From positions 1-36,570 of the forward strand of contig JASJCP010000032.1 in the NCBI GenBank assembly GCA_030065935.1: 36,570 nucleotides of DNA, written 5' to 3'. The notes under the pieces were generated by a model that saw only the letters and a list, made by a program, of their open reading frames with translations, made no database searches and had not been told where the DNA came from. Made by a program: the position numbers and the translations under genes. Origin of the DNA: Xenococcaceae cyanobacterium MO_167.B27 (lineage in GTDB: Bacteria; Cyanobacteriota; Cyanobacteriia; Cyanobacteriales; Xenococcaceae). Position 1 is the first letter of the stretch; every line of letters begins with the position of its first letter. This document shows positions 4,885 to 24,791 of this stretch, piece after piece.

Positions 4885-7749
4885 ATGTCAGATAAGTTAC
4901 GAACTTCATTACTCAATCCTTCTACTCTGCTTTTGACTCTTCTTATCGCAGCAGGATATGCAGGTAATTATCTTAGTTTTCCCTTTGGTTTTGGAGTTAA
5001 TTTTTTATTTGGCAGTATAGCGGTTTTGACAGTTACTAGCCTCTACGGAATTTGGTGGGGAACTATTGCTTCGGTTATTGCTAGTTCTTATACAATTACA
5101 CTGTGGCAACATCCATATGCTCTGATTATTTTCACCTGCGAGACATTATTTATTGCTTGGAGATTGCGCCGAGGAAATCAGAATTTACTGCTGATAGACA
5201 TAATTTTCTGGTTAGTGATTGGGATGCCTTTGGCTGCTTTTTTTTGTGGCAATATTCTTAAAGTGGGAGCAATTAGCACATTGATTATTGTAGTCAAACA
5301 GCCAGTAAATGGAATTTTCAATGCTTTAGTTGCCAGTTTAATACTGACTTATAAGCCACTTTATCAATGGGCAAACTCCTCTAATAAAAACCCAACCTTT
5401 TTTTTCGAGCAAATCTTACTCAACCTTCTAGTAGCTTTTGTTCTCATTCCTGCCTTAATGTTAATGGTGGTAAATAACCGAGTTGTTATGAAGCATGAAC
5501 AAAATGCACTGATAGCAACTTTGGAAACTTCCAGCCAAAATCTGGCAACCGATTTACTTCAATGGCATCAATCTAGCTTACAAGCTTTGCGGGAGTTAGT
5601 AGAAACTAGTAACGAAACTCCAGTTGTAGTTTCAGAGCATACACCACAAAGTATGGAACTATTGATCAGAAGTTTGCCAATTTTTCGACAGATATACATT
5701 ACTAATGCAGATCAAGAATTAGTTGCCGTAGCTCCTTCTAAAAATCAGAAGAGTGAAAATAATCTGGATTTTTCTCGGCTAGCTCTTCCCAGAAAGCCTA
5801 AAATATTTGTACTATCAAATCCCACAGAAGAGTCTGCTGCAACCTCCCAGCCCAAAATTCTGCAAACTTTACCAATTATTCAGAATAATCACTGGCTAGG
5901 AAACATAATAGCGGAGCTAAACATAGACTTTATCAAGGAATTATTACGAACAGAAACACATAATTCCCTATTGAAAAATACCTTACCAGATGGACGTTGG
6001 CTTCTAATTGCTAGCACTTTTCAACAACTTGATTCCCAACAAGTTTTTAATCGCCATCAAAACGGAGAAATTAATTACATACAATCTGATGAACTAGAAA
6101 ATAAAGTTTATCATTGGCTACCAATTATAGAGGGACAACCCCTAGTAGCCCGTTGGAAAAAATCTTTTTATGGACAAGAGCTTTTAATCAATGAGGAAAT
6201 TCCTTGGACTTTAGTTATGGAAACTTCTGCTGCTCCTTATGTTAATTATCTGCAGTTACTTTATATTAGAAGTCTCACTATTTTGCTGTTAATTACGCTG
6301 AGTTCTATTGTAATTGCTAAAGTTTTCAGTCTCCTTTTAGTTAAGCCAATTTTGAACCTGACAGCATTTACTACTAATCTTCCTCAGCAACTCTTACGAT
6401 ATGAAATAATCAAATTGCCTAGAAGTTCTGTAAAAGAAATCAATGCTTTAGCTGCCAACTTTGAGGTAATGTCCAAGACAATAAAAGATAACATTCAGCA
6501 TATTCAAAAAACCAACCAAGAATTAACAGAGGCAAAAGAAGTAGCAGAAGTAGCCAACAAAGCAAAAGAGCAGTTTTTAGCTAATATTAGTCACGAATTG
6601 AAAACACCTCTGAACAGGATCATCAGCTATATTAGGCTGATTCAAAAAAAGTTAGCTATCAACCATTCCTATACTGATAATAATCTAGAATCAAATTTTA
6701 CAGAATGGCTTACAATTGTCAATCAAAATAGTAATTTTTTATTGTCTATGATTGACGAAATTCTCGAGTTTTCTAAAACTAAAGCTCAGAAAACTAAATT
6801 ATATCCTTCTTTGATTGACTTTTCAGATTTTGTCGAAAATATAGTTAAAATTACTGCTAACCAAGCCAAAGAAAAAAATATTTTGTTTAAATATGAAACT
6901 TCAGGTAATTTACCTACTAATATTTATGCTGATGATAAAAGACTAAGGCAAATACTCCTTAATTTACTCAATAACGCAGTAAAATTTACCAACCAAGGAG
7001 AAATAATTTTAAAAATTAGTCAAATTGATACTATCTCTACTAGTGATAGTGATTTTATCCCTAAAGTCAGTTTGCGTTTCGCTATTATTGATAAAGGAAT
7101 TGGAATTTCTCAACAAGATTTGACCAAAATTTTTCAACCTTTTGAACAAGTAGGTACATTGGAAGCTAACAACGATGGGACAGGCTTAGGTTTAGCAATT
7201 TCCAAAATGTTAGTAGAATTAATGGGAGGAAATTTGAAGGTAAAAAGTGAACCCAACATAGGTTCAATCTTTTGGTTTGATGTAACGTTTCCTAAGCTTC
7301 AATTAACTTCAGAAATCACACCAAAATCCGTTAGACAAATTACTGGATATAAAGGCAAACAAGTTAATATTTTAGTAGTAGATGATGAAAAATCCAGCTG
7401 TTTATTACTTCTTGAGCTACTTAAACCTTTAGGCTTTAAAATTATGACCGCAGAAAATGGCAAGCAGGGATTAGAATTTGCCTTGAAATTTAAACCAGAT
7501 ATAATTATAATCGATTTGTTTATGCCAATTAGAACAGGCTTCACTTTAGTTGCAACACTTCGGAACACAAAAGGTTTTGAAACAGTACCAATTATTGCTA
7601 TCTCTGCTAGCAGTTTTCAGGAAATAGAAAAGCAAAGTCTTGCTGTGGGCTGTGATGCTTTTTTGGCAAAACCAATTGATGATAAAAAGTTACTGAATAT
7701 GTTAGCAAAGTATCAAAACTTAGAATGGACATATAAAATTTTTTCATAG
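4885..7749 (+). CDS. Membrane-bound hybrid sensor histidine kinase
   Basis: This 954-residue protein combines sensor, kinase and receiver. Residues about 12-160 form a multi-span N-terminal membrane module of MASE1-like appearance. Another span at about 176-196, an extracytoplasmic sensor region (about 200-455, probably CACHE-like) and a further span at about 463-485 follow. A HAMP-like linker and coiled coil (about 487-560) lead to the HisKA box ISHELKTPLN, with the phosphorylated histidine at 570. The ATP-binding domain shows the N box (NLLNNAVKF, from 693), DKGIGIS (from 736) and GTGLGLA (from 765). The receiver domain begins near 830, with acceptor aspartate 877 and the conserved lysine in AKPID. 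Output is probably phosphorelay to a separate response regulator, since no DNA-binding domain is present. No partner gene is adjacent. Confidence 0.92.
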   Translation: MSDKLRTSLLNPSTLLLTLLIAAGYAGNYLSFPFGFGVNFLFGSIAVLTVTSLYGIWWGTIASVIASSYTITLWQHPYALIIFTCETLFIAWRLRRGNQNLLLIDIIFWLVIGMPLAAFFCGNILKVGAISTLIIVVKQPVNGIFNALVASLILTYKPLYQWANSSNKNPTFFFEQILLNLLVAFVLIPALMLMVVNNRVVMKHEQNALIATLETSSQNLATDLLQWHQSSLQALRELVETSNETPVVVSEHTPQSMELLIRSLPIFRQIYITNADQELVAVAPSKNQKSENNLDFSRLALPRKPKIFVLSNPTEESAATSQPKILQTLPIIQNNHWLGNIIAELNIDFIKELLRTETHNSLLKNTLPDGRWLLIASTFQQLDSQQVFNRHQNGEINYIQSDELENKVYHWLPIIEGQPLVARWKKSFYGQELLINEEIPWTLVMETSAAPYVNYLQLLYIRSLTILLLITLSSIVIAKVFSLLLVKPILNLTAFTTNLPQQLLRYEIIKLPRSSVKEINALAANFEVMSKTIKDNIQHIQKTNQELTEAKEVAEVANKAKEQFLANISHELKTPLNRIISYIRLIQKKLAINHSYTDNNLESNFTEWLTIVNQNSNFLLSMIDEILEFSKTKAQKTKLYPSLIDFSDFVENIVKITANQAKEKNILFKYETSGNLPTNIYADDKRLRQILLNLLNNAVKFTNQGEIILKISQIDTISTSDSDFIPKVSLRFAIIDKGIGISQQDLTKIFQPFEQVGTLEANNDGTGLGLAISKMLVELMGGNLKVKSEPNIGSIFWFDVTFPKLQLTSEITPKSVRQITGYKGKQVNILVVDDEKSSCLLLLELLKPLGFKIMTAENGKQGLEFALKFKPDIIIIDLFMPIRTGFTLVATLRNTKGFETVPIIAISASSFQEIEKQSLAVGCDAFLAKPIDDKKLLNMLAKYQNLEWTYKIFS

Positions 7750-11384: not shown

Positions 11385-14081
11385 TTACATGTTCCATGTA
11401 TCTCTCCAAAGAGTTTTAAGTTTTTGAATTTGTCCTTTTTCTTTTTCTTTGATGGCATCCCAACCATTTTGAATCGCTTGCTTTTCTTTTTTAGTTAATT
11501 TCCAAGAAAGAGGTGGTCGATATTCACCTTGTTCGTTATAAAACTCTGGTGCATCTTCTTGAGAAGGAAAGAAGATAGGAAAGTATTGAATATCAATTTC
11601 TTGTTCTTGGCAGGCTTGGCTTACCTGCTCCCATTTTTTTTGCAAAAGCTCTACTTCAGTGCAGTTACGAGCATTGAAAATTGAATCTCGCACTTTGAAT
11701 ATGGTTAATAATGGACCTAGGGTTGCCATAAATAGACCTCGATTCTTTTCAGCTTCTTGGTTGTCTTCAACTTCTTGATTGTCTTCAGCTTGAGCTGTCG
11801 AAGAATCTTTAGGAAAAGGATTAATTTGCAATAAAAGAACTCTTTTGATTTTGTTTTCTTGGGAGTTTTGTTTGAGCAAATCTATGAGCCATTCTACTGC
11901 TGTCACAAAACCAGAATTGTCGAAATAACCACCATCAGCTACATGATAATTTTTTTGGATATTTAGACTGTCTCGACAAATGGGAGATACATAGGGAAAG
12001 GTGGCGGAAAGCCTGGCAGCAGTGGCAACATTAATATCGTAGCCAGGATAAAGAGTATTAAAATCAAAGAATTTTTTATCAGCAGACTCACCAAAATTCA
12101 TCGGAGTAATTAACAAACGAAAACCGTCTTCAACTAACGTGGAATTAAATACAGGAATGGGAAGTTTGCCTTGAATGATTTGCTGCCGCCAATTGGCTAA
12201 GGTTGTGGTTGGTGCTTTCATTTCACCTTGCCAGTCTGTTTCTAAAGCAGTACCTCGATCAAGTAATCTGGGAGCGAGAATGGGTAAGGCAATAATGCGC
12301 CACAAGTCAGGATAAGCTAAACCCCAACCTACAGCATCTAAACTATCTGCCGTCGCACCATCGAAGATAAGATCTAATTGGTCATCTGGTGGAAAACCTT
12401 CAGGGGAAAAGCGATCGAGATAATACATACTTCCTACTGAGCCACCAGAAACGGAACTAATTAAGTTAATTGCTTTTGGGAATGATGTTCCTAACAGATC
12501 TTTTGCCTGTAAACCAGTTAAAACTTGAGTTGTCCATCCAGCAGCTTGAATTCCACCACCCCTAGCACAGACGATAACTAGGGTTTGTTTGTCCAGACGT
12601 TGTTCGATTAGGGTTTTAAAGTCTGTTAGTTGTTGCGATTGCTGTGTATCTTCTTTAACTTTTTCAATAAGAAAAAAGTGATCGACATTTAATAGCCAAT
12701 ACATCAATCCAGCAATTACTAACCAAAACAAGAATACAGAAACCCGCGAGTAATCGAAAAAAAAGGTGAGACTGCCTAAAAACAATGTTGCGATAGAAAT
12801 TAACAACATTACGTATAACAGTGCAGCTGCTTCTTTTTTTTGTTTGGAAGGGGCTGATTTTGGTCTATAAAGGGCAAAAATGACTATATATACTGCCAGA
12901 AGAACGACAAAGAAAACCAAGGCGTTAAAATTAGCAGTAGTTAAATTACCAGTTACAGGATCGATATAACCTGCGGTAGAGTGATTCGCCAGTAAGGAAA
13001 TGACTTTTACTAAAAAGTGATTTACTCCAGATAATAGCTTGAATACAACAGGATTAGAAGCATTGTCTCTTGAGAGATAGTGTCTTGTTAGCTTGAAGAG
13101 GAATAAAAAGATACCACTCAATGAAACCCCTAAAAACAATCCTTGCCATCTTTTGTTCGGGATTTCTTCTGCTGATAAGTCAATTACAGCTAGAGTAGTA
13201 GGTAAAGCCAGGGCGATCGTTAATAAGTAATACCATAACGGGGGAATTGTTGCTAGGTAAGGCACTCCAAAACGAACAGGTGCTTCATCGAGGATGATTG
13301 CGGTAACAAAGGTTACAGCCATTCCCGCTACAGTTGCCCCCAAAATGGTAAAAGCAATTTGCCAGATACCACGCAGGACAAAAAGATTCTTGAGCATGGC
13401 TGGTAAGAAAAATTCCGCGATCGCAGGAAGAGCTAGCAGTAATATACCCATAACCAGAGGTATCCGAAGGAAAAAGACATATTGCCAAAATATATTAGGG
13501 ATTAGCAGCCATGCTATGACTACTACAACTACGATCACCAGCCACAAAAAGATATTATTTTTCATAATTCGGGAGAATCTTGTAAAGAGAGAATTTAAGA
13601 TGAATTGAATTGATAATTTTACTGAACTTATTAGTTGTCTTGATATATTAAAGCAATAAGATATAAAGTGCGCTAGCTTTAAGAAAAATGATTTTGCTAT
13701 ATTTAATAAATTTCTTAAAAGATTTAATATAATAGAACGATAATCTAAACCAATTTTTGCCCCTCTTCCTTTTAAATTTTGTTCATCTACCGTGGACAAT
13801 CCTCGGTTATTTCTAAACTTAGTACCTTCAACTTCAGTATCATTAAGGTCTGCACCAATAAGATTTGCATTCTTTAAATTAGCTTTATTAAGACTTGATT
13901 CGTCGAAATTAACACTACTAAGATTTGCTCTCTCTAAGTTAGCTTCACTAAGATTTGCTTGACTGAAATTAGCACCATGAAGATCGGTATTTTTCAAATT
14001 AGCTTTACTAAGATTTGCTTGACTGAAATTAGCACCACGAAGATTATCTCCACTAAGATTTTCATTACTTAAATTAGACAT
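11385..14081 (-). CDS. Pentapeptide-repeat / multi-span membrane / patatin-like phospholipase fusion
   Basis: This 898-residue protein has three parts. Residues about 3-92 are pentapeptide repeats (A(N/D)LXX, for example GANFSQANLSKANL) that should fold as a right-handed beta helix. Residues about 178-466 contain about eight membrane spans. The C-terminal 400 residues form a patatin/cPLA2-type lipase domain. It has an oxyanion-hole stretch ARGGGIQAAG (506-515), a nucleophile elbow SSVSGGSVG with Ser545 the likely nucleophile, and DGG at 716-718 giving the catalytic Asp716. The lipase should therefore act on lipids at the membrane that holds it. It is the last gene of a four-gene operon; the gap to the gene before it is 36 bases. 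The domain combination is unusual. Hydrolysis of acyl lipids is inferred from motifs only. Confidence 0.88.
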   Translation of the reverse strand: MSNLSNENLSGDNLRGANFSQANLSKANLKNTDLHGANFSQANLSEANLERANLSSVNFDESSLNKANLKNANLIGADLNDTEVEGTKFRNNRGLSTVDEQNLKGRGAKIGLDYRSIILNLLRNLLNIAKSFFLKLAHFISYCFNISRQLISSVKLSIQFILNSLFTRFSRIMKNNIFLWLVIVVVVVIAWLLIPNIFWQYVFFLRIPLVMGILLLALPAIAEFFLPAMLKNLFVLRGIWQIAFTILGATVAGMAVTFVTAIILDEAPVRFGVPYLATIPPLWYYLLTIALALPTTLAVIDLSAEEIPNKRWQGLFLGVSLSGIFLFLFKLTRHYLSRDNASNPVVFKLLSGVNHFLVKVISLLANHSTAGYIDPVTGNLTTANFNALVFFVVLLAVYIVIFALYRPKSAPSKQKKEAAALLYVMLLISIATLFLGSLTFFFDYSRVSVFLFWLVIAGLMYWLLNVDHFFLIEKVKEDTQQSQQLTDFKTLIEQRLDKQTLVIVCARGGGIQAAGWTTQVLTGLQAKDLLGTSFPKAINLISSVSGGSVGSMYYLDRFSPEGFPPDDQLDLIFDGATADSLDAVGWGLAYPDLWRIIALPILAPRLLDRGTALETDWQGEMKAPTTTLANWRQQIIQGKLPIPVFNSTLVEDGFRLLITPMNFGESADKKFFDFNTLYPGYDINVATAARLSATFPYVSPICRDSLNIQKNYHVADGGYFDNSGFVTAVEWLIDLLKQNSQENKIKRVLLLQINPFPKDSSTAQAEDNQEVEDNQEAEKNRGLFMATLGPLLTIFKVRDSIFNARNCTEVELLQKKWEQVSQACQEQEIDIQYFPIFFPSQEDAPEFYNEQGEYRPPLSWKLTKKEKQAIQNGWDAIKEKEKGQIQKLKTLWRDTWNM

Positions 14082-14117
14082 TTTTTTATTTTTTGATTTG
14101 AATCTTGTAAATTTCTG

Positions 14118-14984
14118 CTACTCAGATGTGGAGAATTCAAGGGTAAAGTTTGATACTCGCTTTTCTCCCAAGTAAACTTGAGCTAGATAAAAGCCTGGTG
14201 CAATTTCCCGCATTTCTTCCTTAACTTTTTTAAAGATGAACGAGGTTTGGGAGTAATCTAAGATGATGGCTTCTCCCTCACAGAACCGACCATTCCCTTT
14301 GTAGATTTCACCTTTGAATGCCCTAATTCCAAAGGGCGGGAGTTTATTAAGAAAAAACTTTTCCTCTCGATAAAAAAATTTTCCCTGCCAAAAAAATAAC
14401 TTACTAATCAATGCCAGCACCTTCACCAAAATAGTTCCAGCAGCAATAATGGCGATACCTTTACCATCTCCATCAGGGATTTCACCCACTGAACCTTGTT
14501 TGTAGAGTTCATCTATTTCCGCTTGAGACATCTTGAGTAAATCCGATGGTTTCAGCGTTGCAGTTGTCAGTTGTTTATCTCCTTGTTCTTGAATTGTTGA
14601 TTTTTTCCACAGTGCTAGAGTTAGGAGGATTCCTTCGACAATGCCAATGCTTAAATCGCCAATACCCAAAGTTAGAAAGCCAGTCGGCATATAAGCGGTA
14701 AATACGCTGATAAAAAAAGTTGTAGCGGGAATTATACGAGCAGCTACTAATAGCCAAGAATTAGCTAGATAGTGAAAAGGATCGTTGGCAGCAGGAATAT
14801 AGAAGCAACTGAGTAAAACTAAAAGAACTGAGTAATTAAAAAGCCAAACGGTAGAATCAGGGGAACCCAATTGTAAGAAGGTAATTAATTGATAGGGAAT
14901 CACAAAAGCGCATACCGCATAGGTAAAATTTGCCAAAATTCCAAACCAAACAACCCGCTTAAACCAAACAGCGTATGTGTTCAT
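14118..14984 (-). CDS. Membrane protein of unknown function, 288 residues
   Basis: I do not recognise the family by name. About four membrane spans lie at residues 12-35, 48-65, 78-100 and 103-127, with a fifth hydrophobic segment at about 178-197. A polar loop rich in Lys, Glu and Gln separates the last two. The C-terminal 85 residues look like a small beta domain with the motifs LDYSQTSF (242-249) and EMREIAPGFYLAQVYLG (257-273). I have the impression of a recurring bacterial domain of the type DEIREVxPGLYLG, but I cannot name it. The gene sits 36 bases before the patatin fusion and 32 bases after the di-heme cytochrome gene, so it belongs to the same operon and probably the same membrane-associated process. 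Confidence 0.75.
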   Translation of the reverse strand: MNTYAVWFKRVVWFGILANFTYAVCAFVIPYQLITFLQLGSPDSTVWLFNYSVLLVLLSCFYIPAANDPFHYLANSWLLVAARIIPATTFFISVFTAYMPTGFLTLGIGDLSIGIVEGILLTLALWKKSTIQEQGDKQLTTATLKPSDLLKMSQAEIDELYKQGSVGEIPDGDGKGIAIIAAGTILVKVLALISKLFFWQGKFFYREEKFFLNKLPPFGIRAFKGEIYKGNGRFCEGEAIILDYSQTSFIFKKVKEEMREIAPGFYLAQVYLGEKRVSNFTLEFSTSE

Positions 14985-15016
14985 GATTTATTCCTCGCAG
15001 TTGTAATTTGTATTCA

Positions 15017-16507
15017 TTAAAGTGTTTTCATGTATTCCACTAGAGCATCTTTATCGTTAGCTGGTAGGTTAGTACCATACAAATGACCGCTATTACTATT
15101 ACCAGGCAAACTGGTATCTAATTTAAAGTATTGTTTACCACTTTCCTCTGCTACGTCAGAGACAAATCCTACCTTGTCGGGATCAAATACATCGTAACCG
15201 CGATAGAATTCTTTCGGTCTATTTTCTGGCGGTTCTAATAAGTCTTTTAAGGTGGGAACTGAACCATTGTGTAAATAGGGAGCTCGTAACCAAATTCCGT
15301 CAAGAGGCATATTGGCATAACCATTAGTTTTTTGGAAGTGCCGAAACTGCTGATCTTCACCTTGATAACTAATACCAGCAAACAACGTCCTTTGATTCTT
15401 GAGGAGTTCCTTGGTATAGGAGTCGAGACGACCTGGATCTGTGCCAATTTCCTCAATAGCTGTTACTGTACCTACTTTTGCTCCATCAAAAGCATGACAG
15501 CTAGCACAGTTATTTTCATAGATTTGTTTTCCCTGAGCAGCTAATTGTTGATTAATCTCATAAGGATAAGCAGGAGGTGGTAATTCCCACAGCCAATCAG
15601 CTACTCGATGAATAGCATCAAAATCAATTGTGGTCGGAGTTACTAAGGCTAGAGCAGCGCTATTATTGCGCTCATTGACCGAGGTGTTATTGCCGTCCCA
15701 GTGTAGTTGCATGCCCTCACGAGGTTTTTGTTGCCAAACGCTAGGAAAATCAGCAATGCCATTGAGTTCTTCTTGGGGTATCTGGTCGGCAGGAACATTA
15801 AACTGACGGGTTTTATAAGAACTAAAAGTATCAACTCGCCCTGGACCATATTCTGACTGCCTATCTAAAAAAGCAAATTTACTTCTTTGGGTAATTAGGG
15901 CATCTCTGGTTTGGGGAATAGCAAAATAGCGATAAATCAACTTTTCTAAAGGATTTAAATTTGCCCCTAATGCCTCAATAGTAGGCATCATTTTATCAGC
16001 AGTAAATCGCTCATCGATCACTACTTCAGAAAGAAATTTAATATATCCCTCTAAATCAACAGTATTAGAAGGCATCGCACTAATAATTTGGGGTTGACTC
16101 TGTGGAGTATCTCTTAGTGTACCTGCATGACAAGTAGCACAGTTTTGGGCGACGCGCTTGAAGCCTATCTTAGCTTGAGAAAAACCAATCGGTAGGTCAT
16201 GTTCTGGTTCTTGAATAAATCCAAAAGAAGCATATCCCTCTCCAGGTAACTTATCGGCAAAAACAACTGGTAGTGCTTGCCAAACCCAATAAGGAATACC
16301 ATTAGCAGCCTCACCACCAATCGAACCATATTTATAATGTTCGTTAATATCTGCATACTTAACTGCACCATTGCCTAACAAGAGTGGTGAAATTAAGTAA
16401 AGCAAAACCGCGACCAGAATAGCTACAATGACTCCTACAATTTTCCACCAAGCTTGCTTTAAATTAAATTCCTTAGATTCTTTAGAACCCTCAATTTCTG
16501 TAGTCAC
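15017..16507 (-). CDS. Membrane-anchored di-heme cytochrome c of the CCP/MauG/RoxA type
   Basis: This 496-residue protein has an uncleaved-looking N-terminal anchor (about residues 21-44) and a periplasmic body with two c-type heme motifs, CATCH at 123-127 and CASCH at 334-338. The spacing of 211 residues fits the two-domain di-heme cytochrome c peroxidase superfamily. After the second heme come WLRAPYLHNGSVPTL (406-420), which is typical of that superfamily, and a C-terminal signature ending in FMN-free segment GTNLPANDKDALVEYMKTL. The same signature ends the 709-residue cytochrome encoded divergently. Possible activities are peroxidase, MauG-like oxidase, or RoxA/10S-DOX-like oxygenase on an unsaturated substrate. 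The sequence alone does not decide. Operon neighbours are a flavoprotein (59 bases upstream) and a membrane protein (32 bases downstream). Confidence 0.88.
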   Translation of the reverse strand: MTTEIEGSKESKEFNLKQAWWKIVGVIVAILVAVLLYLISPLLLGNGAVKYADINEHYKYGSIGGEAANGIPYWVWQALPVVFADKLPGEGYASFGFIQEPEHDLPIGFSQAKIGFKRVAQNCATCHAGTLRDTPQSQPQIISAMPSNTVDLEGYIKFLSEVVIDERFTADKMMPTIEALGANLNPLEKLIYRYFAIPQTRDALITQRSKFAFLDRQSEYGPGRVDTFSSYKTRQFNVPADQIPQEELNGIADFPSVWQQKPREGMQLHWDGNNTSVNERNNSAALALVTPTTIDFDAIHRVADWLWELPPPAYPYEINQQLAAQGKQIYENNCASCHAFDGAKVGTVTAIEEIGTDPGRLDSYTKELLKNQRTLFAGISYQGEDQQFRHFQKTNGYANMPLDGIWLRAPYLHNGSVPTLKDLLEPPENRPKEFYRGYDVFDPDKVGFVSDVAEESGKQYFKLDTSLPGNSNSGHLYGTNLPANDKDALVEYMKTL

Positions 16508-16566
16508 TACTTTTCCCTCAATACTATAAACTACTAACTCCGAACTCCAACGAGCAACCTGATAGT

Positions 16567-18096
16567 CTACATCGGTGGCATATAGGGCTTAGGAGGCGGA
16601 TCGAATACCGTCATTACTTCACGAGTTCTTGCCTTCTCTGCTTCCCTATCTGCCTTATCCCTTTCTTCGCCAGTTAAGTTTTGAATCGAGCGTTGATAAA
16701 AACGGTCTAAGTTATAGCAGCCCATCGGGAGTTCTAGATATGCTCCCAAACAGTCATTGCAATAAGTGCAAGGTCTTTCGGGAATATCCATACCTGACTG
16801 GAATTTATTGACCAGATCGTTATTAGCTACCAACATTCGAGCCATACTTACCCCATCAGTATATCCACCCTCGATCGCAGCATTAATATATGATGCCTGT
16901 TGAAATCCTCCAGTGGTAATAACGGGAATTTCTTTAAGATTTTGCTTAATTTCTTTAGCGTCTCTCAGCACTGTACCTTGGTGTTTATTTAAGAGGTTTT
17001 GAAACTCTTCGGTAGATACATGCTCTCTAAAATATTCATCTAGCTTTTCATCTTCTATCTTTAATCCACTAATTGGCTGCTCATAACGACTCTCTACTTT
17101 TCTAGGTAATCGACTCCAAATCCATTGAAAAATAGGCCATAGGGAAGGATACCGAAATAAAATCACGTTGCGAAAGCTCGCTTTTCCACCACTAGATGTC
17201 ATCGTATCGTAGGTATAGCGAAGCATCCTCAAGGGGAAAGGACCAGAAGGTAATAAGGGATGAGGAAATGTACTGCCACGAGAAACATGAATGGCATCAA
17301 CCCCATCTTCTTCAAGCCACTGACAAATTTGGATGGCTTCCTCAAAAGTATTACCAGACTTTTGCCAGGGAGGAATAATGTTATTGAACTCTCTAACGCT
17401 AATTTTGGCTTGTAGATGAAAGTTATCTCCTACTACTTTACGAATTTCTCGTACAATTTCATGCAGAAATCGATAGCGATTATTGAGATCGCCACCATAT
17501 TCATCTGTACGCTGATTAATAGCAGAACTGAGAAATTGATTAATTAAGTAACCATGAGAGCTATGAAGTTCAATACCATCTAGATTAGCTTCTTTAGCTC
17601 TTCCTGCTGCTTTGGCAAAGTCTTGAACGATCTCTTTGACTTTAGGTGTTGGCATTTTGATGGCAGGTAAACCATTAACTTGATCTGCTTCATCCGTCGA
17701 ACTAGGTGCTGGTTTAGGTTCGATCCCATCCGCCTGAGTCAAAGTATTTTCAATCCCTTCGATGTCTCTCTGACGACCAGAATGACTGAGTTGAAGAATA
17801 TATTTGCAGTCATATCTATGCACTGTTTCCCCGACAGTGTGCCAAAAGGGAATCCGTTCGTCACAGTCTATGGTGACGACATTAGGAGTAATTCGACCTT
17901 CGATCGAGACGGGAGCATAGGAGGAAATAATTGCACCAACTCCCCCCTTTGCAAACTTATTTTCCCAATTCACACGAGCTTGAGTTCCAGAGCCATTATA
18001 GTTATCCCAACGTCCAGTAACACTAGAGCGAAAGATGCGGTTTTTAACTATCAAATGGCGGAATTGCAATGGTTGAAAAATCTGAGCTTTTACCAT
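16567..18096 (-). CDS. Old Yellow Enzyme-family NAD(P)H:flavin oxidoreductase with Fe-S cysteine motif
   Basis: This 509-residue protein has an FMN-binding TIM barrel of the Old Yellow Enzyme family. Visible motifs are QLSHSGRQ (102-109), ELHSSHGYLINQFLS (176-190, with the His178/His181 pair expected to bind the substrate carbonyl), and NQRTDEYGGDLNNRYRF (194-210). FMN-phosphate segments are VITTGGF (392-398) and GVSMARMLVAN (415-425). A C-terminal cysteine cluster, Cys443, Cys446, Cys449 and Cys460 (CX2CX2CX10C), resembles the 4Fe-4S site of the dienoyl-CoA reductase subgroup. The barrel is longer than usual. An extra stretch at about 290-385 includes an aromatic segment (YPSLWPIFQWIW) that could dip into a membrane. 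It is first in the operon with the di-heme cytochrome and patatin genes. Reduction of activated C=C bonds is known for the family; the substrate here is unknown. Confidence 0.9.
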   Translation of the reverse strand: MVKAQIFQPLQFRHLIVKNRIFRSSVTGRWDNYNGSGTQARVNWENKFAKGGVGAIISSYAPVSIEGRITPNVVTIDCDERIPFWHTVGETVHRYDCKYILQLSHSGRQRDIEGIENTLTQADGIEPKPAPSSTDEADQVNGLPAIKMPTPKVKEIVQDFAKAAGRAKEANLDGIELHSSHGYLINQFLSSAINQRTDEYGGDLNNRYRFLHEIVREIRKVVGDNFHLQAKISVREFNNIIPPWQKSGNTFEEAIQICQWLEEDGVDAIHVSRGSTFPHPLLPSGPFPLRMLRYTYDTMTSSGGKASFRNVILFRYPSLWPIFQWIWSRLPRKVESRYEQPISGLKIEDEKLDEYFREHVSTEEFQNLLNKHQGTVLRDAKEIKQNLKEIPVITTGGFQQASYINAAIEGGYTDGVSMARMLVANNDLVNKFQSGMDIPERPCTYCNDCLGAYLELPMGCYNLDRFYQRSIQNLTGEERDKADREAEKARTREVMTVFDPPPKPYMPPM

Positions 18097-18624
18097 TTCA
18101 AAACATCCGTACTAAAAACTTGATAAACTTGATTACATTGCTTCCTTTGAGAAATTTTAAATTCATTATTTAATGCTTCTATTTATTACTATGAAACAAA
18201 TATTTTGTTTTATGCAAAAGAACTTTTTTTTGTTGTATTTCTTTACATAAACTAAGATTTGTCAAGACTGAATAGGGCATAATTCAGTCTTCCCGATTCA
18301 AGATTAAAGCCTCAAATTCCTGAATAGCTATAGTTACAGCGTTTTAATTTGTTCTAATATCTAGAATTACTACTATTGTTTAAAAACAAAATAATTGAGA
18401 ATTATTCTTATTAATTTTAAGATAATGTTGTTAATTTTCTCTAGTTATTTTTTGTGAAAATGAGGGAAAAAGCTTGTGAATAATACAATCTGTATGTTTT
18501 ACAAACTAATGTTAAGTTTTTTGCTCAAGGAAAGCTTTTTTGTATAAAAATTAAAATGAACTTACGTTATAAGAAAAATAAAACTTTTTCAACATAAAAC
18601 ATATGTTGTTTAAAGGAGAAATAT
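18097..18624. other. 528-base divergent promoter region
   Basis: This AT-rich stretch separates the flavoprotein-led operon (minus strand) from the lipoprotein cytochrome (plus strand), so it must hold both promoters. A short dyad, AGAAT-T-ATTCT, lies at 18398-18408 in an ATAATT/ATTCTTAT context. It loosely resembles Fur/PerR-type boxes; that is a weak resemblance, not an assignment. A small AAGACTGAA/TTCAGTCTT hairpin, usable as a terminator-like structure, lies at about 18264-18290. Confidence 0.5.
18613..18618 (+). promoter_or_regulatory. Strong ribosome binding site (AAGGAG)
   Basis: A perfect AAGGAG ends six bases before the ATG at 18625 and fixes the start of the di-heme lipoprotein. 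Confidence 0.8.
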
Positions 18625-20754
18625 ATGACCAAGCCACATCTAGGCATCATTGCCTGTGTGCTGGCGATCGCTTTAATGCTTCTGAGTTGTTCTCCCTATG
18701 AATATCAATCCACATCTGTCGAACGTCTGAGAGAACTAATTGCTGAAGCGGAAGCGAGAAGCAACGCTGTCGATGTTGCCCCATCACAGTCGAACACGCC
18801 AGTCGCTACTCAACCAGCTAATTATGCCAATCAAAGCTACAAAACAAAGCCTGAAGATGAACGCGATCGCGACTATCTTGGCTACGTACCTTCAAAATAC
18901 TATGGTGATCTGACTGAGGCAGAAAAGCGCGGTCTACAGACCTGGTACTTTTGGAATGGCGACAACGAGAAATTCTTCCGCCTGATAGCCAAAAGAACTG
19001 AGGGAATAATAGACTTTTTGGGTCTTGTTGATGCGCGTCCTGACAGTGAGCTTGCTCCAGGCGACAAGCACCACCTTCAACACGATGAGCGTTTTAAAGA
19101 GATTGGAGTGATCAATAACCCTGAGTGTAAGGCGGCGAAAAAGCCGGATGAGTATGGCTTGTGGTTGGATCAGTGCGATCAAGATCCTCATGCCACTGGC
19201 GTCATGGGTGTGGTCAAGTTCAATAATCCCAACTTTGACCCAGAGAAATGGGATGTCGCAAAATATTATGCCGAAGGCGCTCAGATCGAACCTCCCTATC
19301 GCATGGGCATCTCCTGTGGCATTTGCCATATAGCGTTGAATCCTCTTAAACCTCCTGCGGATGCAGAAAATCCGAAATGGGAAAACATAGTTGGAGCCCT
19401 CGGCAACCAATACATTGATGAGGCAGCATTGTTTGGTCGTAACCTTCCAAAGGAAGATTTTGCGAAACAGGTGCTTGACAGTCAGCCACGGGGTACCTCT
19501 GATACCTCTAGGAACGCGACTGATCACATTGACAATCCCAATACGATTAACGCCATTTTTAACTTGGAGGATCGGGTCGCCATCGCCGAGGAAGAAGTGA
19601 TGGATGATGGGACAAAGAGGAAAGTCCCCCACATCCTCAAGGATGGCGCCGATTCCATTGGCGTTCCCGGTGCTTCCCTGCGCGTCTATATCAATATCGG
19701 TATGTGTTCGGAGCAATGGCTGAGGCACCACGACCTGGGAGAAGGACGCTCACCTCAAACACCCTTTAGTATTGCCGAGGCTGAGAAGGAATGCGAAGCC
19801 TGGGGACAGACAGAAGCACGCATGGCAGATGCAGAAGCCTTTCTGAAGACCTTCAAACCTTACCATCTCGAAGATGCACCAGGAGGTAAGGCTTACTTGA
19901 CCAAGGATAAGAAGGTTCTCGAACGCGGGAAAATTGCCTTTGCCGATAATTGCGCGCGGTGTCATTCGAGCAAACAGCCGCCTGCCCAAATCGCTGCGGA
20001 TACTGAACAAGCGAAGCAATGGTATCGAGAGTCAGTGCTAAGTTCTGATTTTCTTGAGCATAACTTCCTGTCGGACGACAAGCGCTATCCGGTGACTGAG
20101 ATTGGCACTAATGCTGCTCGGGCGCTGGCGACCAATGCCAAGAAGGGTCATATCTGGGCAGAATTTTCCTCTAAGACGTATAAAGAATTGCCCTCACCTG
20201 GTACCCTTACCCTTGAGGATCCCTTCGACGAGGATGAACCAATTGAGTTTAAGGTTCCCTCAGGAGGAACAGGTTATTATCGGACCCCATCGCTGATTAG
20301 CCTTTGGTCAAGTGCACCTTTCCTGCACAACAACATGCGCGGCAAATACAATGGCGATCCCTCGGTAGCAGGGCGCATGGAAGCCTTCAACGACGCTATT
20401 GAACAGCACCTTTGGCCTGAGAAGCGCGAGGGAATAATCCAGCGGACATATGAAGATAGCCATTTAGAAATAGGATCTCTGAAAGCGGATGTACCTAAAG
20501 GTACGCCGATTAAGTTACTGGCTAATTTAGACCCCCGTGAGACACCCAAGATTCTCCAACGGAAATTAAACTCTGAATTAGGAGGTAAAGTTTTAAGCTC
20601 TTTGGTTCGCTTTATTCCCGATAAGGTTTTGACTCCGCTGCTGCTGAAATACAATCAAGCTCCTGATTTTATCGAAGATCATGGACATGAATTTGGCACA
20701 GACTTACCCGATGAAGACAAACGAGCCTTAATCGAATTTCTGAAAACTTTCTAG
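18625..20754 (+). CDS. Di-heme cytochrome c lipoprotein, RoxA/oxygenase-like
   Basis: This 709-residue exported protein has a hydrophobic leader with a lipobox-like LLSC at 19-22, so it is probably a lipoprotein. Two heme motifs are present, CGICH at 231-235 and CARCH at 443-447. The 212-residue spacing is nearly the same as in the 496-residue cytochrome encoded divergently. The two proteins also share the C-terminal signature GH-x-(Y/F)-GT-x-LP-x2-DK-x-AL. A typical PSLISLWSSAPFLHNNM segment lies after the second heme. Length and heme spacing resemble rubber oxygenase RoxA and the P. aeruginosa oleate dioxygenase type, but peroxidase activity cannot be excluded. Much of the gene is clearly richer in G+C than its neighbours and uses codons such as CGC, GGC and CTC more. 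This is consistent with transfer, although HIP1 octamers occur near its start. Confidence 0.87.
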   Translation: MTKPHLGIIACVLAIALMLLSCSPYEYQSTSVERLRELIAEAEARSNAVDVAPSQSNTPVATQPANYANQSYKTKPEDERDRDYLGYVPSKYYGDLTEAEKRGLQTWYFWNGDNEKFFRLIAKRTEGIIDFLGLVDARPDSELAPGDKHHLQHDERFKEIGVINNPECKAAKKPDEYGLWLDQCDQDPHATGVMGVVKFNNPNFDPEKWDVAKYYAEGAQIEPPYRMGISCGICHIALNPLKPPADAENPKWENIVGALGNQYIDEAALFGRNLPKEDFAKQVLDSQPRGTSDTSRNATDHIDNPNTINAIFNLEDRVAIAEEEVMDDGTKRKVPHILKDGADSIGVPGASLRVYINIGMCSEQWLRHHDLGEGRSPQTPFSIAEAEKECEAWGQTEARMADAEAFLKTFKPYHLEDAPGGKAYLTKDKKVLERGKIAFADNCARCHSSKQPPAQIAADTEQAKQWYRESVLSSDFLEHNFLSDDKRYPVTEIGTNAARALATNAKKGHIWAEFSSKTYKELPSPGTLTLEDPFDEDEPIEFKVPSGGTGYYRTPSLISLWSSAPFLHNNMRGKYNGDPSVAGRMEAFNDAIEQHLWPEKREGIIQRTYEDSHLEIGSLKADVPKGTPIKLLANLDPRETPKILQRKLNSELGGKVLSSLVRFIPDKVLTPLLLKYNQAPDFIEDHGHEFGTDLPDEDKRALIEFLKTF

Positions 20755-22427: not shown

Positions 22428-24791
22428 TTAGCTGATGGCTGGTGCAAAAACTGGTTGAGTTATAGCAGATATGGTAACTTCTCCAAATTCATTAACATCA
22501 ACTGAAGTGCGATCGCCGTCGTTAATTTGACCAGAGAGGATGGCTTCTGCCAAACTATCTTCCAGAAGTCTCATAATGGCTCTTCTTAGGGGTCTTGCGC
22601 CGTAACTAGGATCGAATCCTTCGGTGATTACTTTTTCGGTAAAGGCTTTGGTTACTTCTATTTCAATATCTCTTTGTTCTTTGAGTCTTTGAGAGATATC
22701 TCCTAACAGGATTTTAGCGATCGCAGAAACTTCAGATTTAGTAAGTTGACGGAAGACAATTACTTCGTCAAGACGGTTGAGAAATTCAGGACGGAAGTAG
22801 TTTTTAAGTTCATCATTAACACGGTCGCAGATTTTTTGATATTCCGCTTCTCCTCTATCTTCAGCAAAAGCAAAACCTAATCCTGTTCCACCTTTTTCGA
22901 TAGCTTTTGCACCGATGTTAGAGGTCATGATGATAATAGTATTTTTGAAGTTTACTACCCGACCACTAGCATCAGTAAGACGACCATCATCTAAGAGTTG
23001 TAAGAAGAGATTAAAGACATCAGGATGAGCTTTTTCAATTTCATCAAAGAGGATTACTGCATAAGGTTTTCTTCTAACTGCTTCGGTTAACTGTCCTCCT
23101 TCGTCATAACCTACAAACCCAGGAGGTGAGCCGATTAATTTAGATACGGTGTGGGATTCCATAAATTCTGACATATCCAAGCGAATCATGGCATCTTCAT
23201 CACCGAACATATAGGTAGCTAAGGCTTTAGCTAATTCGGTTTTCCCTACTCCTGTAGGACCAGAAAAGATGACACTAGCAATAGGACGATTCGGATCGCC
23301 GATACCTGAACGAGAGCGACGTAAGGCTTTAGAGACTGCTTTGACTGCTTCGGTTTGTCCGATAATTCTTTCGTGAAGATGAGCTTCTAAATTAAGTAGA
23401 GTTTCTGATTCTACTTCATCTATCTGATTGACTGGTACTCCTGTCCAAGCGGATACTACTTCCGCTATTTCGGTGACATCTACTACAGGAGTTAGGGATT
23501 GAGGGTTGATGGGTAATACTTCTGAGTCTGCTAATCCCTGATTCATGGCATGTCTCAAATGGACTTTAGAACCTGCTTCATCAATTAAATCAATGGCTTT
23601 ATCTGGTAAAAAGCGATCGCTGATATAGCGGTGGGATAATTCTACTGCTGCGGTAAGAGCCTTGTTACTATATTTAACTTTGTGGAAATCTTCATAGGTT
23701 TTCTGTAATCCCTGAAGAATTGCGATCGCATCTTCTACAGAAGGTTCTCCTACAGAGACTTTTTGGAAGCGTCTTTCTAAGGCTGCATCTTTTTCGATGT
23801 ATTGACGATATTCATCGAGAGTAGTGCTACCAAGACATTGTAATTCTCCTCTAGCTAAAGCAGGTTTGAGCAAGTTCGCAGCATCCATTGCACCACCCAT
23901 TGCACCTGCACCCATCATGGTATGGATTTCATCTATAAACAGGATAATATTGCCAGCCTGTTTCACTTCTTCCACAATGACTTTAAGACGTTCTTCAAAT
24001 TCACCACGGAATTTTGTACCTGATAGTAATAGTCCCATATCAAGACTGATTACTTCTTTGCCTTCTAAAGTTTCTGGTGCTTCTCCTGTAATGATTCTCT
24101 GAGCTAGTCCCTCTGCGATCGCAGTTTTGCCTACTCCAGGCTCTCCTACTAATACAGGGTTATTTTTGGTGCGACGACCTAAAATTTGGATAACTCTAGT
24201 AATTTCTGTTTCTCTTCCCACTACAGGATCGAGTTTTCCTTCTTTGGCTAATTTGGTGAGATTAATACTAAACTCTTCTAACTTGGGTTGGGCTGAAGAA
24301 TTATCCTCTACACCAAAAGCATTAAATCGTTTCTTGTCTCCTGCTCCGACAGCTTCTTTTTCTCCTAGTCTTTTAATAATTTCTGTTCTTAGTTGGTCGA
24401 GATTTAGACCTTGTTCTACCAATACTTTAGCTGCTACTGTATCATTCTTTTTCGCGATCGCTAATAAAATATGTTCGGGACTGATATAGTTGATACTAAG
24501 TTGACGTGCTTCTTGAAAAGCTCGTTCAAAAATACTCTTAACTTTGGGTGTAAAAGGAATATTTGCAGGGCTAAACCCCGCACCTTTACCAACTTTCTCT
24601 TGGATTAATTTGCGAGTTTGATTGGTTTTAATCCCCTGAGCTTCTAATACCTGTGATGCAACAGATGACCCCTCCTCCATTACCCCTAAAAGTATATGTT
24701 CACTCCCTACTAAATTATGTCCTGTGCGTCGGGCTTCTTCTTGAGCCAGAATCACTGTTTTAATCGCTTTCTCATTGAAGTATTCAAACAT
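22428..24791 (-). CDS. clpC: ClpC-like AAA+ unfoldase without the middle domain
   Basis: This 787-residue Hsp100 protein has two Clp_N repeats (about residues 1-145). The first AAA+ module has Walker A GEPGVGKT at 216-223 and Walker B ILFIDEIH. The second has Walker A GPTGVGKT at 511-518 and [13 protein letters not shown]. The ClpP-docking loop is present (GTGLGF, 635-640), so it should feed substrates to ClpP. Between LIDEAGS (402-408) and [10 protein letters not shown] (445-454) only about 36 residues remain. Normal ClpC has some 45 more there, forming the coiled-coil middle (UVR) domain that binds adaptors such as MecA and controls assembly. The total length is accordingly below the usual cyanobacterial ClpC of about 820. 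It is therefore probably a second, differently regulated ClpC paralogue. It is transcribed divergently from ftsH. Confidence 0.9.

Follow-up and report, generated by a model that had tools for sequence, protein, structure and literature searches.

A multi-phylum cluster of di-heme enzyme genes in a Xenococcaceae cyanobacterium and its possible role in fatty-acid oxygenation

Introduction

Di-heme enzymes that oxygenate fatty acids have, to our knowledge, been characterised in a single protein pair of one species, the oleate 10S-dioxygenase PA2077 and the 7,10-diol synthase PA2078 (FadCcp) of Pseudomonas aeruginosa, and we know of no other characterised proteins in the NCBIfam family NF040606 (di-heme cytochrome c peroxidase). 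We report here on a five-gene locus in a 36,570-nucleotide stretch of DNA from Xenococcaceae cyanobacterium MO_167.B27 (GenBank assembly GCA_030065935.1, contig JASJCP010000032.1, positions 1 to 36,570), hereafter called the window. The locus encodes two di-heme proteins (DH1 and DH2), an OYE-family flavoprotein (OYE), a membrane protein (MEM) and a membrane protein with a patatin-like domain (PAT). Because two-heme enzymes of this kind recur beside known fatty-acid oxygenating enzymes, the cluster is probably a bacterial system, not previously described, for making or handling oxidised lipids.

In the primary account, PA2077 acts as an oleate 10S-dioxygenase and depends on the histidines of both hemes, PA2078 converts its product, the second enzyme of the pair is proposed to limit hydroperoxide toxicity, and PA2077 carries a Lys/Phe loop pair whose RoxA counterpart, F317, is essential (PMC4496055). 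The products of this pair steer motility and biofilm formation, according to part of a further account (PMC5155153), and excerpts of another paper describe, for Nostoc punctiforme, a heme 10S-dioxygenase with a catalase-related hydroperoxide lyase as its partner (PMC9579011). The NF040606 family is already catalogued and the P. aeruginosa pair already characterised; in the open-licence literature of PubMed Central, judged from titles and the beginnings of abstracts, we found no description of the multi-gene, multi-phylum cluster or of its linkage to lipoxygenase, alpha-DOX or catalase-like genes.

The two di-heme proteins

DH1 (positions 15017 to 16507, minus strand; 496 amino acids) is N-terminally anchored and belongs to NF040606, which it matches at 204.3 bits (cut-off 150). 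The protein has exactly two CXXCH sites, CATCH123 (residues 123-127) and CASCH334 (334-338), and carries both the MauG-type His413 within PYLHNGSV (PYLHNGSVP in full) and the C-terminal His475. Its Trp270 is the inter-heme Trp (W251 of PA2077), a position that holds Trp in 14 of 16 aligned rows, Phe in a proteobacterial copy of the tandem paralogue DH1' (locus L129 in our numbering, in which L denotes loci and G genomes) and Ser in the PA2078-like row. By simple hydropathy, DH1 and DH2 both look extracytoplasmic.

As a stand-in for PA2077/PA2078 we used a likely orthologous pair at locus L202, picked by its published motifs (GSHFNLPHD, YRQH, EPTR, ELYR, EQQR; EYD, ESQR). Their two hemes are 245 and 235 residues apart, their NF040606 scores are 529 and 488 bits, and the PA2078-type protein has 624 amino acids. 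The window locus and the P. aeruginosa pair have several features in common, namely neighbouring di-heme paralogues with two CXXCH sites, the motif P-Y-L/F-H-N-G-S-V, a C-terminal His and a placement on the periplasmic side, and a single NCBIfam cut-off is exceeded both by DH1 and by the pair's close relatives. Direct similarity of DH1 to the PA2077-type protein is strongest in the last 101 residues, where identity is 51%. The window differs in holding one DH1 together with DH2, and a profile search found no OYE, MEM or PAT partners at L202.

The first-pass annotation of this DNA had counted the two di-heme proteins as of one type with PA2077/PA2078, but in a tree that includes the L202 pair neither DH1 nor DH2 groups with it. 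This tree was built by a quick method from 483 columns of 75 chosen rows of DH1 and DH2 relatives, with no RoxA, MauG or cytochrome c peroxidase (CCP) rows; two of its end branches are long, and the two rows from L151 have an unusual composition. DH1 and DH1' form a single clade of 47 rows (Shimodaira-Hasegawa-like approximate likelihood ratio test, SH-aLRT, 99), which splits into a DH1 group of 22 rows (support 89) and a DH1' group of 24 rows (support 94), each covering several phyla, with one row in neither. The PA2077/PA2078-type pair falls outside this clade among other proteins of about 600 amino acids, and DH2 forms a third, distant clade.

RoxA and RoxB had likewise been named as proteins of this type. 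DH1 and RoxA/RoxB are all large c-type di-heme enzymes with an inter-heme Trp and a common C-terminal region (DH1 matches the RoxA-like cytochrome region PF21419 at 61.9 bits), and RoxA (4b2n) is the best PDB sequence match of DH1 (E 4.6e-10). GMC oxidases and OYE, both present in the clusters described below, also act on sterol-like molecules. These points would fit enzymes that act in the manner of RoxA on an isoprenoid, carotenoid, hopanoid or sterol, with the fatty-acid neighbours being incidental. However, DH1 scores 60.8, 56.4 and 72.4 bits against the RoxA, RoxB and RoxC models, whose cut-offs are 1000, 900 and 900; DH2 reaches 21.7 bits with RoxC, the sole Rox model listed for it. DH1 is also about 170 residues shorter than RoxA, and no rubber link was seen. 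We rejected RoxA membership on these scores. The linked oxygenases and lipases, which come from several phyla, are of families that act on fatty acids or acyl lipids, and no isoprenoid cyclase or cleavage dioxygenase appeared among the neighbour proteins chosen for Pfam scans, which were a minority of all neighbours. We therefore regard a substrate of this other kind as very unlikely.

An NF040606 protein of another type was seen in Azotobacter chroococcum (L204:6304-8562; G427, the genome of L091). This 752-amino-acid di-heme protein scores 456.6 bits against NF040606 and has a strong RoxA-like region, yet is unlike the RoxA, RoxB and RoxC models.

DH2 (18625 to 20754, plus strand; 709 amino acids) is a di-heme lipoprotein with exactly two CXXCH sites, CGICH231 and CARCH443, and a lipobox Cys, C22, that is invariant in all six aligned orthologues. 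It matches no Pfam or NCBIfam family above cut-off, giving sub-threshold cytochrome matches only, and scores 40.6 bits against the NF040606 cut-off of 150. In a profile comparison with DH1, the alignment covers only about 100 columns, in the region of heme 2 and of the LHN motif (hhalign probability 99.1%). The predicted structure (predicted local distance difference test, pLDDT, 80.0; predicted template modelling score, pTM, 0.80), made from an alignment from which 4 of 42 rows with doubtful starts were left out, would place DH2 in the MauG/CCP/RoxA fold superfamily. In fold comparison it resembles four kinds of chain about equally: hydrazine synthase (Z 12.3, 237 aligned, 5.2 Å), MauG (Z 11.4, 255, 4.1 Å), RoxA (Z 10.9, 375, 5.0 Å) and P. 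aeruginosa CCP (Z 10.3, 224, 4.0 Å). Foldseek gave no match of the model at E 0.001, the best being MauG at 1.6e-3.

This even resemblance would suit an account in which DH1 and DH2 have no lipid role and are electron-transfer cytochromes, MauG-like protein-modifying cytochromes or plain hydrogen peroxide peroxidases, as would the presence in most proteobacterial loci of a further protein, CL3, that usually has two CXXCH sites. Yet neither DH1 nor DH2 matched a classical CCP or MauG Pfam model at E 0.01, which supports the earlier interpretation of the locus and led us to reject the classical CCP reading. In addition, the only members of DH1's NCBIfam family that we know to be characterised are the fatty-acid enzymes PA2077/PA2078, whose close relatives score far above its cut-off, and lipases and oxygenases recur next door. 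A function unconnected with lipids thus seems improbable.

CL3 proteins (for example L087:3770-6169, L089:7624-9984 and L129:7902-9929) have about 650-800 amino acids, with two CXXCH sites in 20 of 23 rows. Their genes stand between MEM_C (one of the two MEM modules introduced below) and DH1 in proteobacteria and Nitrospira, and the one protein scanned had no clear Pfam family.

Conservation of the locus in cyanobacteria

The first-pass annotation described a tight four-gene operon divergent from the gene of a second di-heme lipoprotein. The open reading frames (ORFs) and their coordinates bear this out, with gaps of 36 (PAT/MEM), 32 (MEM/DH1) and 59 (DH1/OYE) bases and DH2 divergent from OYE. 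The five-gene neighbourhood is conserved, its order being found in four other cyanobacterial genomes and its core in 80 further loci. In G012, G016 and G017, the proteins of the DH2 <-> OYE-DH1-MEM-PAT arrangement are 58-90% identical to those of the window, and MEM is split into two ORFs in G017. G052 has the same order at 40-74% identity, with a tandem second DH1 and a shorter MEM that consists of its N-terminal half (MEM_N) only. Judged by sequence comparison, the recurrence of this order is more than chance. G001, from the same genus as the window, has no PAT, and its DH2 and OYE genes are separated by a dioxygenase gene and a catalase-like one.

DH1 matches at E 0.001 occur in 16 of 60 genomes of relatives (the window's own included), a count that takes in more distant family members of about 600 amino acids. 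DH1 proper (E < 1e-90) is present in 11 of the 60, and the distribution is therefore patchy. Among 386 genomes across Cyanobacteriota, strong DH2 (E < 1e-40) and strong DH1 (E < 1e-100) each occur in 5, window included, and 3 genomes have both. With the window left out, 2 genomes are shared between sets of 4 and 4 in 385 (hypergeometric P ~5e-4, with limits that were set after seeing the lists).

The divergent intergenic region (18097 to 18624; 528 bases), in which both promoters presumably lie, is alignable among the window, G012, G016 and G017. This four-member alignment yielded no motif worth claiming.

A cluster found in nine phyla

A search of our genome collection with the DH1 alignment matched at least 583 stretches, at least 559 of which encode relatives. 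We surveyed the loci of the best 80 of these, a choice biased towards DH1 proteins like that of the window. Parts were counted by profile searches of six-frame translations at a threshold of at least 60 bits, and some loci are short contigs; longest-ORF maps lost genes in high-GC loci and were not used for counting. The loci come from Pseudomonadota (45), Acidobacteriota (14), Cyanobacteriota (10), Nitrospirota (4) and Verrucomicrobiota (2), with one each from Planctomycetota, Gemmatimonadota, Kiritimatiellota and Myxococcota and one without a phylum. With relatives in nine named phyla, the system is not specifically cyanobacterial, as had been supposed.

The recurring parts include the two modules that are fused in the MEM protein of the window, a helical membrane module (MEM_N) and a calycin-like beta-barrel domain (MEM_C). 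DH2 was found in 51 of the 80 loci, MEM_N and MEM_C in 36 each, CL3 in 31, GMC in 24 and OYE in 23, and at least one of DH2, OYE, MEM_C, MEM_N and GMC is present in 73. In 62 loci at least two segments match DH1 above 150 bits, although some of these segments may be pieces of one gene. Among loci of at least 15 kb, DH2 is present in 41 of 60. The core of the cluster is DH1, usually with its tandem paralogue DH1', together with DH2 and the MEM modules.

Four orders recur: DH2 | OYE-DH1-MEM_N-DH1' in cyanobacteria and Acidobacteria; OYE-DH1-MEM_N-DH1'-DH2-GMC in alphaproteobacteria; DH2-MEM_C-CL3-DH1-DH1' in beta- and gammaproteobacteria and Nitrospira; and GMC followed by MEM_N-DH1' in Pseudomonas, Acidobacteria and one Prochloraceae genome. 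The MEM modules are encoded elsewhere by separate genes or are fused to DH1' or DH1, as in MEM_N-DH1' (L098) and in two MEM_C copies joined to DH1 (L088), whereas the window has MEM_N-MEM_C. MEM_N is also fused with a weakly catalase-like domain in L132.

GMC oxidoreductase genes for proteins of about 1150 amino acids lie upstream of the MEM_N-DH1' fusion in L154 and L156-L160 (Pseudomonas), L142 and others. The one such protein scanned, from L142, has an alpha/beta-hydrolase domain, and most of these GMC loci have a calcineurin-like phosphoesterase gene. FAD_binding_4 oxidases, a further flavoenzyme type, are encoded beside or near DH1 in Kiritimatiellota (L140:4936-6291) and in a cyanobacterium (L028:3819-5111).

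Linkage to fatty-acid oxygenases and lipases

In Nostoc-type loci, a lipoxygenase gene ends the operon (L074, L081, L082, L085 and L086). The L086 protein matches PF00305 at E 1.2e-64, and its nearest solved structure is 5mef (E 1.7e-127). For comparison, any lipoxygenase (PF00305) occurs in 56 of 386 cyanobacterial genomes. In G433, G584, G585 and G586, the lipoxygenase of the locus is the sole PF00305 match of the whole genome, with coordinates that agree, and G171 (L074) has two lipoxygenases, one of them inside the locus.

A dioxygenase of the alpha-DOX type (animal-peroxidase family) is encoded in seven loci from Cyanobacteria, Halomonadaceae, Alteromonadaceae and Kiritimatiellota (L025, L043, L084, L124, L139, L140 and L151), and all seven proteins have a YR(M/L)H motif. 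In a whole-genome search that did not include the genome of L124, the dioxygenase of the locus was the sole PF03098 match in G580 (L084), G582 (L140) and G583 (L151). The chance of a single gene falling within 10 kb of DH1 is estimated at about 0.2-0.5% for genomes of 4-9 Mb, a figure that holds per single family when many families were looked at.

Directly after the dioxygenase, L025 and L084 carry a catalase-like gene of 306-309 codons, of which L043 has a fragment. The dioxygenase and catalase-like gene stand in this order between DH2 and OYE in G001 and before OYE-DH1 in L084, which is reminiscent of the dioxygenase and lyase of Nostoc punctiforme. The window copy differs from that system in having neither gene, and the L025 dioxygenase is nearest to plant alpha-DOX among solved structures (4kvj, E 1.9e-123). 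The catalase-like gene has no Pfam match, and its L084 copy has no PDB sequence match. It is so named for its weak similarity to the L132 domain and for the score of the gene at the matching place in L139 with PF00199 (17.8 bits; cut-off 25), and for its likeness to known catalase-related proteins. Relatives occur in 4 of 386 genomes: G140 and G319 have the order dioxygenase, catalase-like, GMC, patatin and no DH1 match, and in G074 and G235 the relative lies beside a lipoxygenase. In L124 and L151, the gene that separates alpha-DOX from OYE encodes a 302-amino-acid protein, which matches nothing in Pfam and does not resemble the catalase-like protein.

Predicted lipid hydrolases recur as well. 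They include the patatin (window and four relatives) and a hydrolase termed HYD331; in Nostoc, a PGAP1/LCAT-like hydrolase is encoded next to DH2, and G056 has a GDSL lipase. One copy of HYD331 shows weak Tle3/DDHD resemblance and the other copy scanned shows none. Remnants of lipoxygenase and HYD331 hydrolase genes lie in L075 (~6198-6400) and L024 (~7149), and we take these as signs that partner genes have been lost and replaced in the cluster.

Similar neighbours are found around cyanobacterial NF040606 proteins of about 600 amino acids that are nearest to the P. aeruginosa-type pair. Those of L034, L036 and L037 form a six-row group with the pair (SH-aLRT 97); a lipoxygenase and a class-3 lipase are encoded nearby at L034 and L036, a lipoxygenase at L037 and a class-3 lipase at L035, a locus that is not in the tree. 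The hosts of L034, L036 and L037 belong to the window's own family of cyanobacteria, and at L036 two lipoxygenase genes, one incomplete, lie around the NF040606 gene.

The OYE, MEM and PAT proteins

OYE (16567 to 18096, minus strand; 509 amino acids) is a flavin mononucleotide oxidoreductase that belongs to PF00724 (208.2 bits; cut-off 27). The protein has an HxxHGYL motif and a CxxCxxC cysteine motif, which resembles that of the Fe-S subclass of OYEs. PF00724 and HxxHGYL are held in common with plant OPR and with bacterial OYEs of the FadH/BaiCD type. Unlike these, the window protein falls under the NCBIfam cut-offs (best match 168 of 793 bits), and Pfam and NCBIfam scans matched no C-terminal Rossmann or second flavin/NADPH domain.

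MEM (14118 to 14984, minus strand; 288 amino acids) matches no Pfam or NCBIfam family. Its predicted structure (pLDDT 79.3, pTM 0.57) combines a helical membrane part at the N-terminus with a barrel at the C-terminus, the latter matching 4mve (Z 14.0, 136 aligned, 2.9 Å); lipocalins, streptavidins and fatty-acid-binding proteins match at lower, less telling scores. The MEM_C structure alignment left out 3 of 24 rows with doubtful starts. Because of the calycin-like fold and the domain fusions, MEM might bind or carry a hydrophobic ligand.

PAT (11385 to 14081, minus strand; 898 amino acids) has a pentapeptide N-terminus (residues ~1-95), about nine hydrophobic segments (177-465) and a patatin-like hydrolase domain (~505-760). 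The match to PF01734 (18.2 bits; 23.1 for the G012 orthologue) is under the cut-off of 27.7. The motifs SVSGG/AVSGG with its Ser, DGG and GGG (DGG at 716 and GGG at 508 in the window protein), candidates for the Ser/Asp dyad and the oxyanion glycines of a patatin, are kept in all five copies, namely the window and four orthologues, with the first Gly of GXSXG replaced. A fusion of pentapeptide, membrane and patatin parts had been noted in the first-pass annotation. It holds for the window copy, in which the pentapeptide repeats (~13797-14081) are fused in frame, but not for the orthologues in G012, G016, G017 and G052. These align from residue 170-176 onward and begin at about the equivalent of Met173, and the window gene has an in-frame ATG at codon 173.

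We rejected PAT as a core part of the cluster, as it occurs in 4 of 109 other loci examined (a few of which overlap or share one genome), and rejected the pentapeptide part, which was seen in the window copy only.

A proposed pathway and its alternatives

Taking together the genes present, their synteny and family placement, the heme sites and the linkage described above, we put the probability that the locus is a fatty-acid oxygenation (oxylipin) pathway at roughly 0.55. A good deal more secure is the nature of the substrate, which is quite likely to be a fatty acid or something formed by its oxidation. The lipid-oxygenation idea of the first-pass annotation gains from the lipoxygenases, alpha-DOX-type dioxygenases, catalase-like proteins and lipases in loci of the same kind; its patatin component is rare among them.

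In the proposed pathway, an unsaturated acyl chain would be freed by a membrane lipase, a role that would fall to PAT in the window and to different lipases at other loci. The anchored DH1 and the lipoprotein DH2, on the outer side of the cytoplasmic membrane, would then oxygenate this chain or convert its hydroperoxide, a step proposed by analogy with the action of the P. aeruginosa di-heme pair on oleate. The MEM_C barrel might bind or hand over a hydrophobic intermediate, and OYE might reduce an alpha,beta-unsaturated carbonyl product (enal or enone). In clusters that include a lipoxygenase or heme dioxygenase, the hydroperoxide probably comes from that enzyme and is then processed by DH1 and DH2. 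The reactions, their order and the direction of the pathway (synthesis or detoxification) could differ from this scheme.

Several observations weigh against an oxylipin pathway. DH1 is about 130-145 residues shorter than the P. aeruginosa enzymes, falls in a separate clade of 47 rows and has no loop bearing the Lys/Phe pair that the PA2077-like protein carries. Neither a lipoxygenase nor a dioxygenase is found nearby in 71 of the 80 loci. No lipoxygenase was matched in the window genome, in a search whose control also gave no match (the family search does find the 56 genomes mentioned above), and the only PF03098 protein of this genome is ~28% identical to the dioxygenases of the locus type. 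The Nostoc lipoxygenase loci represent one lineage, with one or two events, and are not independent; of two further Nostoc-type loci, L075 (G393) holds no more than a remnant of a lipoxygenase gene, with no match in the whole genome, and L132 (G587) has none. Additional PF03098 matches lie outside the locus in G001, G013 and G581.

The location of the proteins adds a difficulty. No export signal or membrane segment was predicted in OYE, nor an N-terminal membrane segment in the two dioxygenases and the lipoxygenase that were checked (all by simple hydropathy, without a signal-peptide predictor). These enzymes would therefore occupy another compartment than DH1 and DH2, and the product of one step might need to pass through the membrane before the next. 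OYE is the weakest step of the proposal, because its substrate would have to return to, or arise in, the cytoplasm.

The same genes might instead form a repair or detoxification locus, in which lipases excise oxidised chains, DH1 and DH2 reduce lipid hydroperoxides with periplasmic electrons, and OYE reduces enals and enones. Consistent with this, the DH1 family is named for di-heme cytochrome c peroxidase and the inter-heme Trp is kept, the toxicity-limiting role proposed for the second P. aeruginosa enzyme (PMC4496055) is of this kind, and bacteria such as Nitrospira and Accumulibacter also have the cluster, with no dioxygenase found in its vicinity. However, linkage to enzymes that make hydroperoxides (lipoxygenase and alpha-DOX) suggests production, and several loci encode oxidising flavoenzymes, with GMC in 24 of 80. 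Between the two we lean slightly towards synthesis, and we consider repair on the whole unlikely, if less so than the alternatives set out above.

Neighbouring genes

Outside the locus, the window holds an ordinary metal ABC transporter downstream and, beyond DH2, genes for a spondin-domain protein and a ClpB-like ATPase. The latter (22428-24791; 787 amino acids), a ClpB-type AAA ATPase, scores 969.8 bits against the ClpB equivalog cut-off of 1232 and is therefore probably a divergent or shortened disaggregase.

Implications

More broadly, and as a tentative suggestion to which we give somewhat less than even odds, DH1, DH1', DH2 and the MEM modules might be the central parts of an oxylipin system that bacteria of at least nine phyla possess. 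This would be a fourth oxygenase machinery beside lipoxygenases, COX-like heme dioxygenases and P450s, using multi-heme c-type enzymes outside the cytoplasmic membrane, with lipoxygenase, alpha-DOX and the catalase-like lyase swapped in as hydroperoxide sources or sinks and the calycin domain serving as a fatty-acid carrier.

If the cluster does make or process oxylipins, many kinds of bacteria, among them cyanobacteria, nitrifiers and wastewater bacteria, would have this chemistry. Gene sets that already bring together lipoxygenase, dioxygenase, catalase-like and lipase partners would make the family open to testing. A likely substrate class would then be at hand for hundreds of proteins (the at least 559 relatives) that now carry the name 'di-heme cytochrome c peroxidase'.

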